Of a stretch of DNA of 25,605 nucleotides, positions 1,286-11,102 are shown in pieces. The notes below the pieces were generated by a model, which worked only from the letters and a program-made list of their open reading frames with translations, had not been told where the DNA came from and ran no database searches. Each line of letters opens with the position of its first letter. The first letter of the stretch is position 1. This DNA is from a virus, in IMG/VR virus record IMGVR_UViG_3300030109_001814, positions 1-25,605 of that record; one strand, given 5' to 3'. A program made the position numbers and the translations under genes.

Positions 1286-1939
1286 ATGGCAAAGCAAACT
1301 GTAGGAATTGGCTCAAGTGCAAATGATGGTAGTGGCGATACACTTCGTGCTGGTGCAGATAAAATAAATGATAATTTTACAGAAATATATAATGCATTAG
1401 GAAACAGTTCTAGCGTTTTGACTGATATTATAGACGCTAATGGTCTTTTAGATGTAAGTTCTGGTGCTAATAAAATTGTTTTTTATTACGCTGCTTTAAC
1501 TGATTTACCAAGTGCTTCGACATATCATGGAGCAGTAGCTCACGTTCATGCAACAGGTGGGTTGTACTTTGCTCATGGTGGTGCTTGGTTGCGTTTAAAT
1601 GATGAAACTAGTGGGCCTGTTACTAAATATACAACGACAGCCGCAACTGGTTCTGCTTATCAATTTTCAGGCCCTGGAGCAACGTCAGGAGACAATCCTA
1701 ATTTTACTTTTTATAAAGGTCACACTTATCTTATAGATAATACTTCTTATGTAAGTAGCCATCCTTTGCAAATAAGAACATCAAACGGAGGTTCTGCTTT
1801 TACCACAGGTGTAACAGACAATTTTAATTCTACAACTGGACTAACACAATTTATTGTGCCACATGAGCCTTCTGATACTTCTTTAGTATATCAATGCACG
1901 GTTCATAGTAGCATGGTTGGAAACATAACGATAGTATAG
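1286..1939 (+). CDS. Tail fibre-like protein with C-terminal cupredoxin-like domain
   Basis: The 217-aa protein has three parts. Residues 1-38 hold GDTLRAGADKINDNFTEIYNAL, a frequent N-terminal attachment motif of phage fibres and baseplate proteins. Residues 65-105 hold a His-rich beta stretch, HGAVAHVHATGGLYFAHGG at 81-99, seen in other marine phage structural proteins. Residues about 112-217 look like a cupredoxin beta sandwich: SSHPLQI with His159, and YQCTVHSSM with Cys204, His207 and Met210. The C-x2-H-x2-M spacing plus an upstream His is the type-1 copper ligand set, with the loop spacing of amicyanin. Copper binding is inferred, not shown. RBS GAGGG lies at 1277-1281. The protein sits among adaptor genes, so it may be a side fibre or decoration of the tail. 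Confidence 0.65.
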   Translation: MAKQTVGIGSSANDGSGDTLRAGADKINDNFTEIYNALGNSSSVLTDIIDANGLLDVSSGANKIVFYYAALTDLPSASTYHGAVAHVHATGGLYFAHGGAWLRLNDETSGPVTKYTTTAATGSAYQFSGPGATSGDNPNFTFYKGHTYLIDNTSYVSSHPLQIRTSNGGSAFTTGVTDNFNSTTGLTQFIVPHEPSDTSLVYQCTVHSSMVGNITIV

Positions 1940-1943
1940 CAAA

Positions 1944-2588
1944 ATGAGTTTTACGTACACCACACTTAAACAAGCCATACAGGATTGGACAGAGAATGAT
2001 GAAACAACTTTTGTTAATAATCTTGATGTCTTTATAAAAAACACTGAAGAAAGAATACTAAAACTCGTTGAGTTAGAATATTTTCGTAAAAATGTCACGG
2101 GGACATTAACAAATGGAAATAAATTTCTAGCTGTACCCACCGATTATTTAGGTTCTATAGCTTTATCTGTTATAAATTCTAGCAACAATGAATTTTTATT
2201 GTTTAAAGATGTTAACTATGTTCAACAATACAATCCAAATCCAGCCACTACGGGTGTTCCTAAATACTATGCTTACTTCGATGTCGATAATTTTATTGTT
2301 AGTCCTACTCCTAATAGTAATTATTCTGTTGAGTTACATTATTACTATAGGCCCCAATCAATAACAGCCACAGCAGATGGCACATCTTGGCTAGGTACAA
2401 ACGCTCCTGATGCTTTATTATTTGGTAGTTTGTTTGAATCTTATATTTTTATGAAAGGTGAGGCAGAGTTTTTAAATATTTATAATGATAGGTTTATAGA
2501 AGCTTTATCTCGTTTGAAGAATTATGGGGAAGCTACAGAGAATACGGATGCCTATAGAACAGGTTTGAGGATAATGCGAAAAACGTGA
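1944..2588 (+). CDS. Second adaptor/tail-completion candidate (214 aa)
   Basis: The 214-aa protein resembles phage adaptor or tail-tube-A-like proteins. An N-terminal helix (TLKQAIQDWTENDE, about 7-20) is followed by a helix ending LELEYFRKN-like at about 40-50. A beta region follows with FLAVPTDYLGS near 64-74, GVPKYYAY near 111-118 and the SPTPNSNYSVELHYYYRP run near 125-142. A C-terminal helical part closes with Arg-rich residues. The order 'P-x-D-Y, G-x-P-x-Y, x-P-x-P-x-x, L-x-Y-Y-x-x-P' recurs in gp4/gp11-type adaptors, but this copy is divergent from the 219-887 product. There is no clear Shine-Dalgarno before ATG 1944, which suggests coupling to the upstream gene ending 4 bp before. 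Its TGA overlaps the next GTG start (GTGA, 2585-2588). Confidence 0.55.
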   Translation: MSFTYTTLKQAIQDWTENDETTFVNNLDVFIKNTEERILKLVELEYFRKNVTGTLTNGNKFLAVPTDYLGSIALSVINSSNNEFLLFKDVNYVQQYNPNPATTGVPKYYAYFDVDNFIVSPTPNSNYSVELHYYYRPQSITATADGTSWLGTNAPDALLFGSLFESYIFMKGEAEFLNIYNDRFIEALSRLKNYGEATENTDAYRTGLRIMRKT

Positions 2589-3328
2589 AAGCTTTAAAAA
2601 ATAAAGAAATAGCTATTGTAGCATTAGGTGGATCTTTTGCCGAGTTTGTTTTAACTAGAATAAATTCTGTTAAATATGATGAAGTATGGGGGATTAATTG
2701 CATAGGTGCAATTTTTCATGTTGATAGAAGTTTTATGATGGATCCTGCTAGTAGATTTTTAGATGATACAAAAGCAGGAAAACAAACAAATATTGCTAGA
2801 GAATTTTTACTAGAAGTACAAGATAAAGGTACCATTTACTCATGCTGTACAGATGAAAGAGTACCTGAGATTATAGAATACCCATTAGAGGATGTAATAA
2901 ACTCAGTTAAAGTTGCTTACTTTAACAATACGGTTGCTTATGCGATTGCTTTTGCTATTCATGCAAAAGTAAAAAAGATAAACCTTTTTGGTGTAGATTT
3001 TTCTTATAAACAAAACTTACATTTTGCAGAAGCAGGACGAGCCTGTGTAGAGTTTTGGTGCGCTATGGCAATACAAAAAGGTGTACTTATTGAAGTAGCT
3101 TCTACTTCTCCTTTACTAGACTGTAATGTTCCTGATAATGAAAAGTTATATGGATATCACAGATTAGATAATCCTTTAATACAGTCTGTTGTTGATGGTA
3201 AAATACATATATCTAAAAATAAACCTATGTCACCACCCGAACCAACAGACATAGACCCTGTTTTAATAGGTAGGCATGACATACCAAATGTAACTTATAT
3301 AGAAGAGGCTAAAGGTGATAAGCGTTAA
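2585..3328 (+). CDS. Rossmann-like DUF115/sialyltransferase-like protein
   Basis: The 247-aa product does not look like a structural protein. Residues 7-17 form a strand plus glycine loop (KEIAIVALGGS). DEVWGINCIGAIFHVDRSFMMD at 32-53 resembles the 'nucleotide-fold, then known position' pattern of DUF115/MAF-type and related sialyltransferase-like proteins. Residues 115-125 (NTVAYAIAFAI) are followed by KINLFGVDFSY at 131-141 and HFAEAGRACVEFW at 146-158; the strand ending in G-x-D-x-[ST] is the strongest family hint. Such proteins include glycosyltransferase-like enzymes and MptE-like pyrophosphokinases, so the reaction is not determined. The start is GTG at 2585, overlapping the previous TGA; a distant AGGA lies near 2568. 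The gene sits inside the tail cluster, so it may modify a virion protein or a host surface. Family placement is tentative. Confidence 0.5.
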   Translation: MKALKNKEIAIVALGGSFAEFVLTRINSVKYDEVWGINCIGAIFHVDRSFMMDPASRFLDDTKAGKQTNIAREFLLEVQDKGTIYSCCTDERVPEIIEYPLEDVINSVKVAYFNNTVAYAIAFAIHAKVKKINLFGVDFSYKQNLHFAEAGRACVEFWCAMAIQKGVLIEVASTSPLLDCNVPDNEKLYGYHRLDNPLIQSVVDGKIHISKNKPMSPPEPTDIDPVLIGRHDIPNVTYIEEAKGDKR

Positions 3329-9509: not shown

Positions 9510-11102
9510 ATGCCATCACCTTTAGTTTCAGCTAACGGATTTTACAAAACTACTACAGTATCAAGTAATAGTTTTTATCCAATTATACCAGCCTCAGGAG
9601 GCTCTGTCAGTGTAAATGTCTCGGTAACAGGGGTACTTGGAACATCTACTCTTGGTGACGAAACGGTTGTAGCAACAGAAAATGTGACTGTAGCAGTCAC
9701 AGGAGTTAGTGGAACCACTGCTCTTGGTGACGAGACAGTATCAACTACCGAAAATATAACAGTCGCAGTCACGGGGTTAAGTGGAACATCTACTCTTGGC
9801 AACGAGACGGTTGTAGCAACACAAAATATAACAGTCGCAGTCACGGGGTTAAGTGGAACTACTACTCTTGGGGACGAAACAGTTGTAGCAACGGAAAATG
9901 TATCAGTCGCAGTCACAGGTGTTAGTGCTACATCTACCCTTGGCGATGAAACAGTATCTACCACAGAAAACGTATCTTTTAGCGTTACAGGAGTAAGCGG
10001 CACAACTGCTCTTGGCGATGAGACGGTTGTAGCAACAGAAAACGTATCTTTCAGTGTTACAGGAGTTAGTGCTACAACTGCTCTTGGCGATGAAACAGTT
10101 GTAACAACACAAAACCCGATTGTAGCAGTTACAGGGGTTTTTGGTACTGCTACTCTTGGTGTCATATCAATAGCCACTCAAGGAAACATCTCAGTTGGTG
10201 TTTCAGGTTTCCAATCTACAACAGCTATTGGAAGTGTAACTCCAACGGGAGCAAGTCTTGTTTCTTTAAATGGAGTTTTTGGCACTGGTGAATTGGGTAA
10301 TGTCTCAATTGGGTTAGTAACACCTGTTGATGTAACATCATCTCAATTAAGTGGTAGTATTGGTGATGTAGTTGTTGCGGCAATACAAAATGTAACTGTA
10401 GCTGTAACAGGGGTGAGTGCTACAACTTCAGTAGGTACTTTAACTTTATCTGGCGCATCTAATGTAACAGCATCTGGGGTAACTGGGACTACAGCATTAG
10501 GTACTCCAACGGTTGTAGCCGAAAAAAATGCCATAGTATCTGTTTCAGGAGTAAGTGCTACCTCTAGCCTTGGTGATGAGACAGTTATAACATCTGTCGA
10601 GTTTGCAGTTACTGGTGTTAGTGCTACCTCTAGCCTTGGTTCAGTTAGTATATTAAACTCTATCGTTGTTCCAGTTACAGGCAATACAGTTACTACTGGT
10701 TTAGGTAACACAGAAGAAACTGGCACAAGTTTAGTTGCTGTGACAGGTGTGGCAGGAACAACGGCTCTTGGTAATGCTTCCGTAGAATTAATTACTCCTG
10801 TTGCTGTTACAGGTCAGCAAATCACAGGTCAAATAGGTACTGTAGCCTCTACAGGATCTTGTGTTGTAAGTCTTACAGGATTGTCAATAGAAGCTAAAGT
10901 TGGTATTGTACTTATATATCAAGATATAGATGTAAGTCAGACACCAAATTATTCAGGAGTTACTGTAAGTCAGACACCAAATTATTCAAACGTAGCAACA
11001 GGAGTTACTGCCGGTTACAGTGACGTTTCACCGAGTCAAACACCAAACTACTCAGGATCTACACCAAACCAAACACCTGATTGGAAAAAGGAAGCAGCAT
11101 AA
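9510..11102 (+). CDS. Tandem-repeat virion protein with about 19 short beta repeats
   Basis: The 530-aa product is dominated by a repeat with the core V-x-V-T-G-V-S-G-T-T-x-L-G. The closing [LIV]-G pair recurs at residues 48, 72, 96, 120, 144, 168, 192 and 216 (exactly 24 apart) and then at 239, 262, 284, 308, 330, 354, 376, 398, 420, 442 and 464 (22-24 apart, mostly 22). Residues 475-526 contain a second repeat, S/N-Q-T-P-N/D-Y/W, four times. Only Cys451 is present. A stiff beta filament in a tail fibre is the natural reading; the exact fold is unknown. The start lies 21 bp after the previous stop with only a weak purine tract before it. Its TAA overlaps the next ATG (TAATG, 11100-11104). 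Confidence 0.65.
   Translation: MPSPLVSANGFYKTTTVSSNSFYPIIPASGGSVSVNVSVTGVLGTSTLGDETVVATENVTVAVTGVSGTTALGDETVSTTENITVAVTGLSGTSTLGNETVVATQNITVAVTGLSGTTTLGDETVVATENVSVAVTGVSATSTLGDETVSTTENVSFSVTGVSGTTALGDETVVATENVSFSVTGVSATTALGDETVVTTQNPIVAVTGVFGTATLGVISIATQGNISVGVSGFQSTTAIGSVTPTGASLVSLNGVFGTGELGNVSIGLVTPVDVTSSQLSGSIGDVVVAAIQNVTVAVTGVSATTSVGTLTLSGASNVTASGVTGTTALGTPTVVAEKNAIVSVSGVSATSSLGDETVITSVEFAVTGVSATSSLGSVSILNSIVVPVTGNTVTTGLGNTEETGTSLVAVTGVAGTTALGNASVELITPVAVTGQQITGQIGTVASTGSCVVSLTGLSIEAKVGIVLIYQDIDVSQTPNYSGVTVSQTPNYSNVATGVTAGYSDVSPSQTPNYSGSTPNQTPDWKKEAA
9654..10157 (+). repeat. 72-bp tandem coding repeat, seven units
   Basis: Seven in-frame units of exactly 72 bp encode the 24-aa repeats between residues 49 and 216 of the 530-aa protein. 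Neighbouring units are close enough that long identical stretches recur at the 72-bp offset. For example, the same 37 bases appear starting at 9751 and at 9823. The array lies inside a gene and does not change the reading frame, so unit gain or loss would shorten or lengthen the protein by 24 residues without truncating it. Confidence 0.85.
10931..11087 (+). repeat. Coding repeat encoding S-Q-T-P-N-Y units
   Basis: A second, shorter repeat closes the 530-aa gene. A 25-bp identical stretch occurs at 10931-10955 and again at 10964-10988, a 33-bp period; two more diverged copies follow (about 11032-11055 and 11065-11087). The encoded unit is SQTPNYSG or a variant, ending in NQTPDWK just before the stop. 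The region may be a short linker or an attachment site for a partner. Confidence 0.8.

Follow-up and report, generated by a model that had tools for sequence, protein, structure and literature searches.

On the plus strand of the window, by which we mean the whole 25,605-nucleotide stretch of DNA analysed here, the open reading frame at 1286–1939 encodes a 217-amino acid appendage protein of a 25.6 kb viral contig. Its family matches suggest that the protein is a virion appendage subunit and part of the tail: it matches PF07880, the T4 gp9/gp10 family, above the cut-off, as well as the tail families phrog_677, phrog_6942, and phrog_958. Residues 3–62 (1292–1471) are of the type of the N-terminal attachment segment of T4 gp9 and gp10, with a helix at residues 19–37. 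It is here that PF07880 matches, with E 3.3e-7 and 31 bits against a curated cut-off of 25, the match spanning only 61 of the 175 profile positions. A short histidine-rich beta hairpin follows at residues 66–107 (1481–1606), based on the tail fibre family phrog_9729, the homologue alignment, and the structure model. The remainder, residues 112–217 (1619–1936), is the predicted cupredoxin domain, based on AlphaFold2, Foldseek against the PDB, hhalign against PF00127, and a PDB profile search.

When the single sequence was searched against the PDB, T4-type gp10 and gp9 chains were found with E values of 2.7e-5 to 0.02, the match being limited to residues 3–44. The same search returned one weak unrelated match and no cupredoxin; detection of the cupredoxin relationship in the PDB required a profile rather than a single sequence. 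The protein is thus like T4 gp9 and gp10 in its N-terminal 60 residues, whereas their C-terminal domains are absent and are replaced by the cupredoxin. Residues 108–217 are matched by phrog_677, annotated as 'baseplate wedge tail fiber protein connector' in cyanophages (whole-protein E 6e-47). Pfam, NCBIfam, and PHROGs give the C-terminal domain no name, and none of them makes a cupredoxin call for the window protein.

The adjoining open reading frame at 887–1285, also on the plus strand, encodes 132 amino acids and matches phrog_28581 (E 1.5e-18). In three relatives (L113, L115, and L116) a phrog_28581 segment and the cupredoxin domain are the N-terminal and C-terminal parts of one fused protein, which suggests that the two adjacent genes of the window are functional partners. 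Both lie between two genes of the SU10 adaptor family (PF24175), at 219–887 and 1944–2588. A stabilization-protein homologue is common to the window, the Pelagibacter phages HTVC023P and HTVC027P, and the Roseobacter phages CRP-901 and CRP-902, and the window also encodes a DNA-ejection-protein match and a GH108 endolysin. The source is probably a phage with a short tail that infects marine bacteria; in a megablast search, no named phage proved to be closely related. Among the other genes, a 247-amino acid open reading frame at 2585–3328 lies between structural genes and has no PHROG or Pfam match. The 530-amino acid protein encoded at 9510–11102 is composed of many similar repeats (VTGVSGTTALGDETVVATENVxV) and is likely to be a repetitive fibre.

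Fold of the C-terminal domain

The cupredoxin superfamily and the ligand loop of amicyanin are textbook knowledge, and the first-pass annotation of this DNA had proposed that both could be recognised in the C-terminal third of the protein. Structure prediction bears this out. The AlphaFold2 model of the domain, built from 52 sequences, has eight strands, a pLDDT of 83.5, and a pTM of 0.78; the models have the Greek-key beta-sandwich of about eight strands that characterises the superfamily. In a separate model of the full-length protein, confidence is high for the C-terminal domain (block means of 77–93) and low for the N-terminal part. The top Foldseek matches of the domain model in the PDB are the three-domain nitrite reductase 2dv6, rusticyanin, AcoP, plastocyanin, purple cupredoxin, and amicyanin, with a few Ig domains interspersed. 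For the full-length model, every one of the top 11 matches is either rusticyanin or a three-domain nitrite reductase, with E values from 2e-4 to 1e-3. Among the predicted viral structures in BFVD, fibre and baseplate proteins from cyanophages have the same fold, with a best TM-score of 0.86.

Profile comparisons agree. Against a PF00127 blue-copper set of 44 domains from alphaproteobacterial and cyanobacterial genomes, hhalign gave a probability of 96.65% (E 4.8e-10) and placed His159, Cys204, His207, and Met210 on the four ligands. The controls stayed low: 1.9% for the reversed alignment, and no more than 0.35% for any of ten column-shuffled decoys. In the PDB profile search, antibody matches ranked behind plastocyanins (best E 1.6e-4) and amicyanins (best E 3e-3); a further profile search of the PDB gave a similar picture. 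Together, model and profile–profile comparison confirm residues ~112–217 as an independent predicted cupredoxin beta-sandwich.

Some results count against the cupredoxin reading. The TM-scores to known cupredoxins are moderate, at 0.45–0.55 (0.52/0.55 for plastocyanin), and the window protein matches neither PF00127 nor PF13473 at the curated cut-off. A few relatives match these two families weakly, with best E values of 0.0015 and 0.0021, and relatives also give weak matches, below the curated cut-off, to the At5g54830-like domain (PF25489). Rusticyanin and the nitrite reductase 2dv6 are the best Foldseek matches, yet rusticyanin is larger, the reductase is a multi-domain enzyme, and sequence identity is 12–18%.

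The resemblance to amicyanin and plastocyanin (PF00127) follows the order of the parts: a beta-sandwich, a histidine before a strand, a Y-x-C ending a strand, a loop, and a final strand. In contrast to these proteins, the domain ends a virion protein, which has no secreted electron-carrier architecture, and there is an extra N-terminal hairpin. Amicyanin also belongs to a methylamine dehydrogenase neighbourhood, whereas the window gene stands in a phage structural one.

The predicted copper ligand set

The first predicted ligand, His159 (1760–1762), lies just ahead of a strand in the model and is followed by the invariant Pro160 (1763–1765). Tyr202 (1889–1891) is invariant and stands two residues before the cysteine, as in the Y-x-C of plastocyanin and amicyanin. 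Cys204 (1895–1897), the predicted second ligand and the sole cysteine of the protein, ends a strand, and His207 (1904–1906) and Met210 (1913–1915), the predicted third and axial ligands, lie in the loop preceding the last strand. All of these are on the plus strand, and their codons place the four ligands within the open reading frame exactly where the first-pass annotation had put them. The C-x2-H-x2-M spacing is, as it had also stated, that of the amicyanin loop. The superfamily pattern His...Cys-x2-His-x(2-4)-Met is thus found in order and at the expected strand positions.

Are these residues conserved because they form a site? Neither of the refuting conditions named in the first-pass annotation, a predicted fold other than a cupredoxin and free replacement of two or more of the four residues, was borne out: all four are invariant in full-length copies, and ligand conservation of this kind is a feature of the superfamily. 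In the first alignment, of 73 distinct copies, each full-length copy had H159, C204, H207, and M210. Among 38 copies with 28–99% identity to the window, the sole invariant columns were G145, H159, P160, Y202, C204, H207, and M210, and the same seven were still invariant in 52 rows that included cell-derived and other viral copies. By our own arithmetic, four positions named beforehand would all fall among seven invariant columns of ~98 with a chance of ~1e-5, and a chance origin of the four-ligand pattern is unlikely.

The codons vary synonymously, with CAC in 62 and CAT in 119 copies for H159, TGC in 110 and TGT in 70 for C204, and CAT in 99 and CAC in 81 for H207. Since these residues are fixed while their codons are mixed, the invariance is not the result of recent copying. 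In sets for which CxxHxxM was not a requirement, the ligands were complete in 44/44 copies gathered by six patterns (one of them covering the loop), in 43/43 found in a single-sequence scan with the N-terminal half as query, and in all 22 full-length copies from tblastn matches in phage records. The alignment-guided scans used a pattern with CxxHxxM, so that they are unbiased for H159 alone and were not counted for the other three. Of 176 domain copies, 170 have exactly one cysteine, so that its conservation cannot be explained by a disulfide within the domain. One divergent duplicate reads H-C-H-K, with lysine in place of the methionine, and degenerate copies lose the set.

This loss was followed in a profile scan of whole cyanophage genomes, five relatives of ~57 kb, and two assemblies, with copies grouped at 70% identity. 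The histidine and a C-x2-H-x(2-4)-M loop were both present in 25 copies and both missing from six; one had the histidine only and none the loop only (Fisher p = 7.7e-6). A search artefact does not account for this, because a half-kept site would outscore an empty one with the profile, yet the mixed copies are missing. Residues 45 positions apart are retained or lost jointly, as expected for a metal site.

The surroundings of the first histidine differ from those in azurin, plastocyanin, and amicyanin, where Asn follows it; in the window domain that Asn is absent and the invariant Pro160 stands there instead. This counts against the cupredoxin reading, although the Asn is not superfamily-defining. 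The H-P pair is the type-1 site context of multicopper oxidases, and HP-containing oxidase segments align at the first-His column in the blue-copper alignment. A site with H-P instead of H-N could have a shifted colour and potential.

Distribution in phages and bacteria

The domain is present in 318 phage records, nearly all from Synechococcus or Prochlorococcus phages, and in more than 500 viral contigs. The first-pass annotation had mentioned similar endings on other marine phage structural proteins, and this proved right. The domain proteins in the phage records listed are annotated solely as baseplate, fibre, tail, or hypothetical protein. In T4-like cyanophages the domain ends gp9, and additional copies are encoded by the gene that follows or form part of very large proteins. 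This cyanophage gp9 (phrog_677) has a homologous C-terminal domain and retains all four ligands. It differs from the window protein in length (~400–500 amino acids in T4-like myoviruses against 217) and in genome, T4-like in one case and with P22-like stabilization and SU10-type adaptor genes in the other. None of the cyanophage gp9 records examined has a cupredoxin annotation. In the T7-like podovirus P-GSP1, the domain is near the N-terminus of a 668-amino acid protein.

Contigs filed under bacteria or archaea add other arrangements. In these the domain is joined to a T7 tail-fibre N-terminus (L110), is on a collagen-like fibre (L106) or on gp9-like proteins (L101 and L102), stands beside a lamin-tail domain (L107 and L109), or is part of a CBM6-esterase (L118). 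Additionally, three alphaproteobacterial genomes of ~1.4 Mb have two tandem copies within a ~430-amino acid protein. Its gene adjoins a short-chain dehydrogenase-like gene at both loci examined, and these loci look chromosomal. In L363 (646–1938) and L364 (628–1917), both tandem cupredoxin domains have the histidine and C-x2-H-x2-M, and there is no Pfam match. The tandem protein is a possible cellular source or target of the phage module. These occurrences lead us to regard the domain as a mobile module that is carried by unrelated appendages in marine phages and by some proteins of marine bacteria.

A 148-amino acid open reading frame in a Prochlorococcus assembly (L308) matches PF00127 and has the phage-like pattern RHPFYIKT ... 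YYYVCSPH; it may link the phage domain with the blue-copper proteins of cells. A further match, in a Nonlabens xiamenensis assembly (L099/L305; NZ_RMVE01000006.1, 188235 bp), was rejected as an indication of cellular origin. The 8.3 kb region there aligns end to end with cyanophage P-TIM40 at 99.1% identity, and contig and phage have about the same length. The assembly is very likely contaminated by cyanophage.

Possible roles of a putative copper site on a phage tail

The cupredoxin fold and four ligands that are unchanged across hundreds of related marine phages suggest that the particles probably carry bound copper. We put the probability that this virion protein has a cupredoxin domain which binds copper at roughly 0.7, a figure that does not extend to any docking role. 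Free copper is scarce in the cytoplasm, where virions assemble, and this counts against copper. Known blue-copper domains carry electrons or form part of enzymes. The literature searched, which left most subscription journals and preprints uncovered, held no description of a cupredoxin on a virion or phage tail; the domain is a cupredoxin by fold, profile, and ligands, and its virion setting is without a precedent that we found.

What would copper do there? We tentatively favour a metal-stabilised docking module, at somewhat less than even odds, and rank a purely structural lock nearly as likely and a redox trigger less likely. For docking, the N-terminal T4 gp9/gp10-like segment would attach the subunit to the particle and leave the cupredoxin domain exposed. 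Each chain would bind one copper ion at a type-1-like His2-Cys-Met site, the metal being taken up once the host has lysed, either from the surrounding seawater or from the envelope of the host. The metal would tie the strand of the first histidine to the C-terminal loop and so fix the face around His207, which may then contact the cell surface or a partner fibre. In type-1 proteins the C-terminal ligand histidine emerges at a hydrophobic contact face. Docking is favoured because the module is reused on appendages that contact cells and is mostly at the end of the protein.

Alternatively, copper or another soft metal may simply pin the beta-sandwich, with no redox or receptor role, much as iron does in the tip of T4 gp37. 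This is a reasonable possibility, which we place only behind docking. The site is kept on many unrelated appendages and in varied positions including internal copies, which suits a role in stability, and with a single cysteine, disulfides do not do the stabilising. However, the six degenerate copies retain the domain pattern without ligands, so the metal is not strictly required for the fold, and a His2-Cys-Met set is costly for stability alone.

A redox or copper-sensing switch is rather improbable. The tail would carry Cu(II) while in seawater; once at the surface or in the periplasm of the host, the metal would be reduced to Cu(I), and the resulting change in the loop would trigger or strengthen attachment. 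The type-1 ligand set, the amicyanin-length loop, and relatives that are electron carriers would suit such a switch, as would the presence of the module on the baseplate and tail-fibre connectors of T4-like cyanophages, the place for a trigger to act. On the other hand, no partner oxidoreductase was found, and the hosts are widely different. Somewhat less improbable, though still unlikely, is the broader claim that, in several unrelated lineages of marine phages, the tail bears a type-1 copper centre that is redox-active and serves in host attachment. If that were so, a copper-dependent and possibly redox-gated infection step would exist across ocean viruses.

Metal piracy, in which a copper-loaded tail would mimic a metal ligand and so reach an outer-membrane metal-uptake receptor, has an iron analogue in the Ferrojan horse idea discussed in the literature. 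The module is mainly in ocean phages and similar ones are in marine bacterial proteins, but type-1 sites bury their copper and bind it tightly, and no link to copper-uptake genes was seen; we regard this explanation as very unlikely. Least probable of all is a decorative Ig-like sandwich whose four residues are coincidence or relic: phage tails often have Ig-like domains and some occur among the weaker fold and profile matches, but the best matches are cupredoxins in four comparisons and the ligands are invariant and lost jointly, and we rejected it because the second cysteine of a sandwich disulfide is missing.

With these results, a domain found in hundreds of phage records can be named and assigned to a class of function. 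If copper is bound, every such particle would carry copper, the abundant cyanophages and other phages of the ocean would rely on a scarce metal for tail assembly or adsorption, and infectivity could respond to chelators or to the redox state.

The middle hairpin (YHGAVAHVHATG..YFAHGGAW) has conserved histidines of its own, with H81, H86, H88, and H97 invariant in 100 close homologues. An HxH motif lies in this histidine-rich stretch (residues 81–103, 1526–1594) and could be a candidate second metal site.
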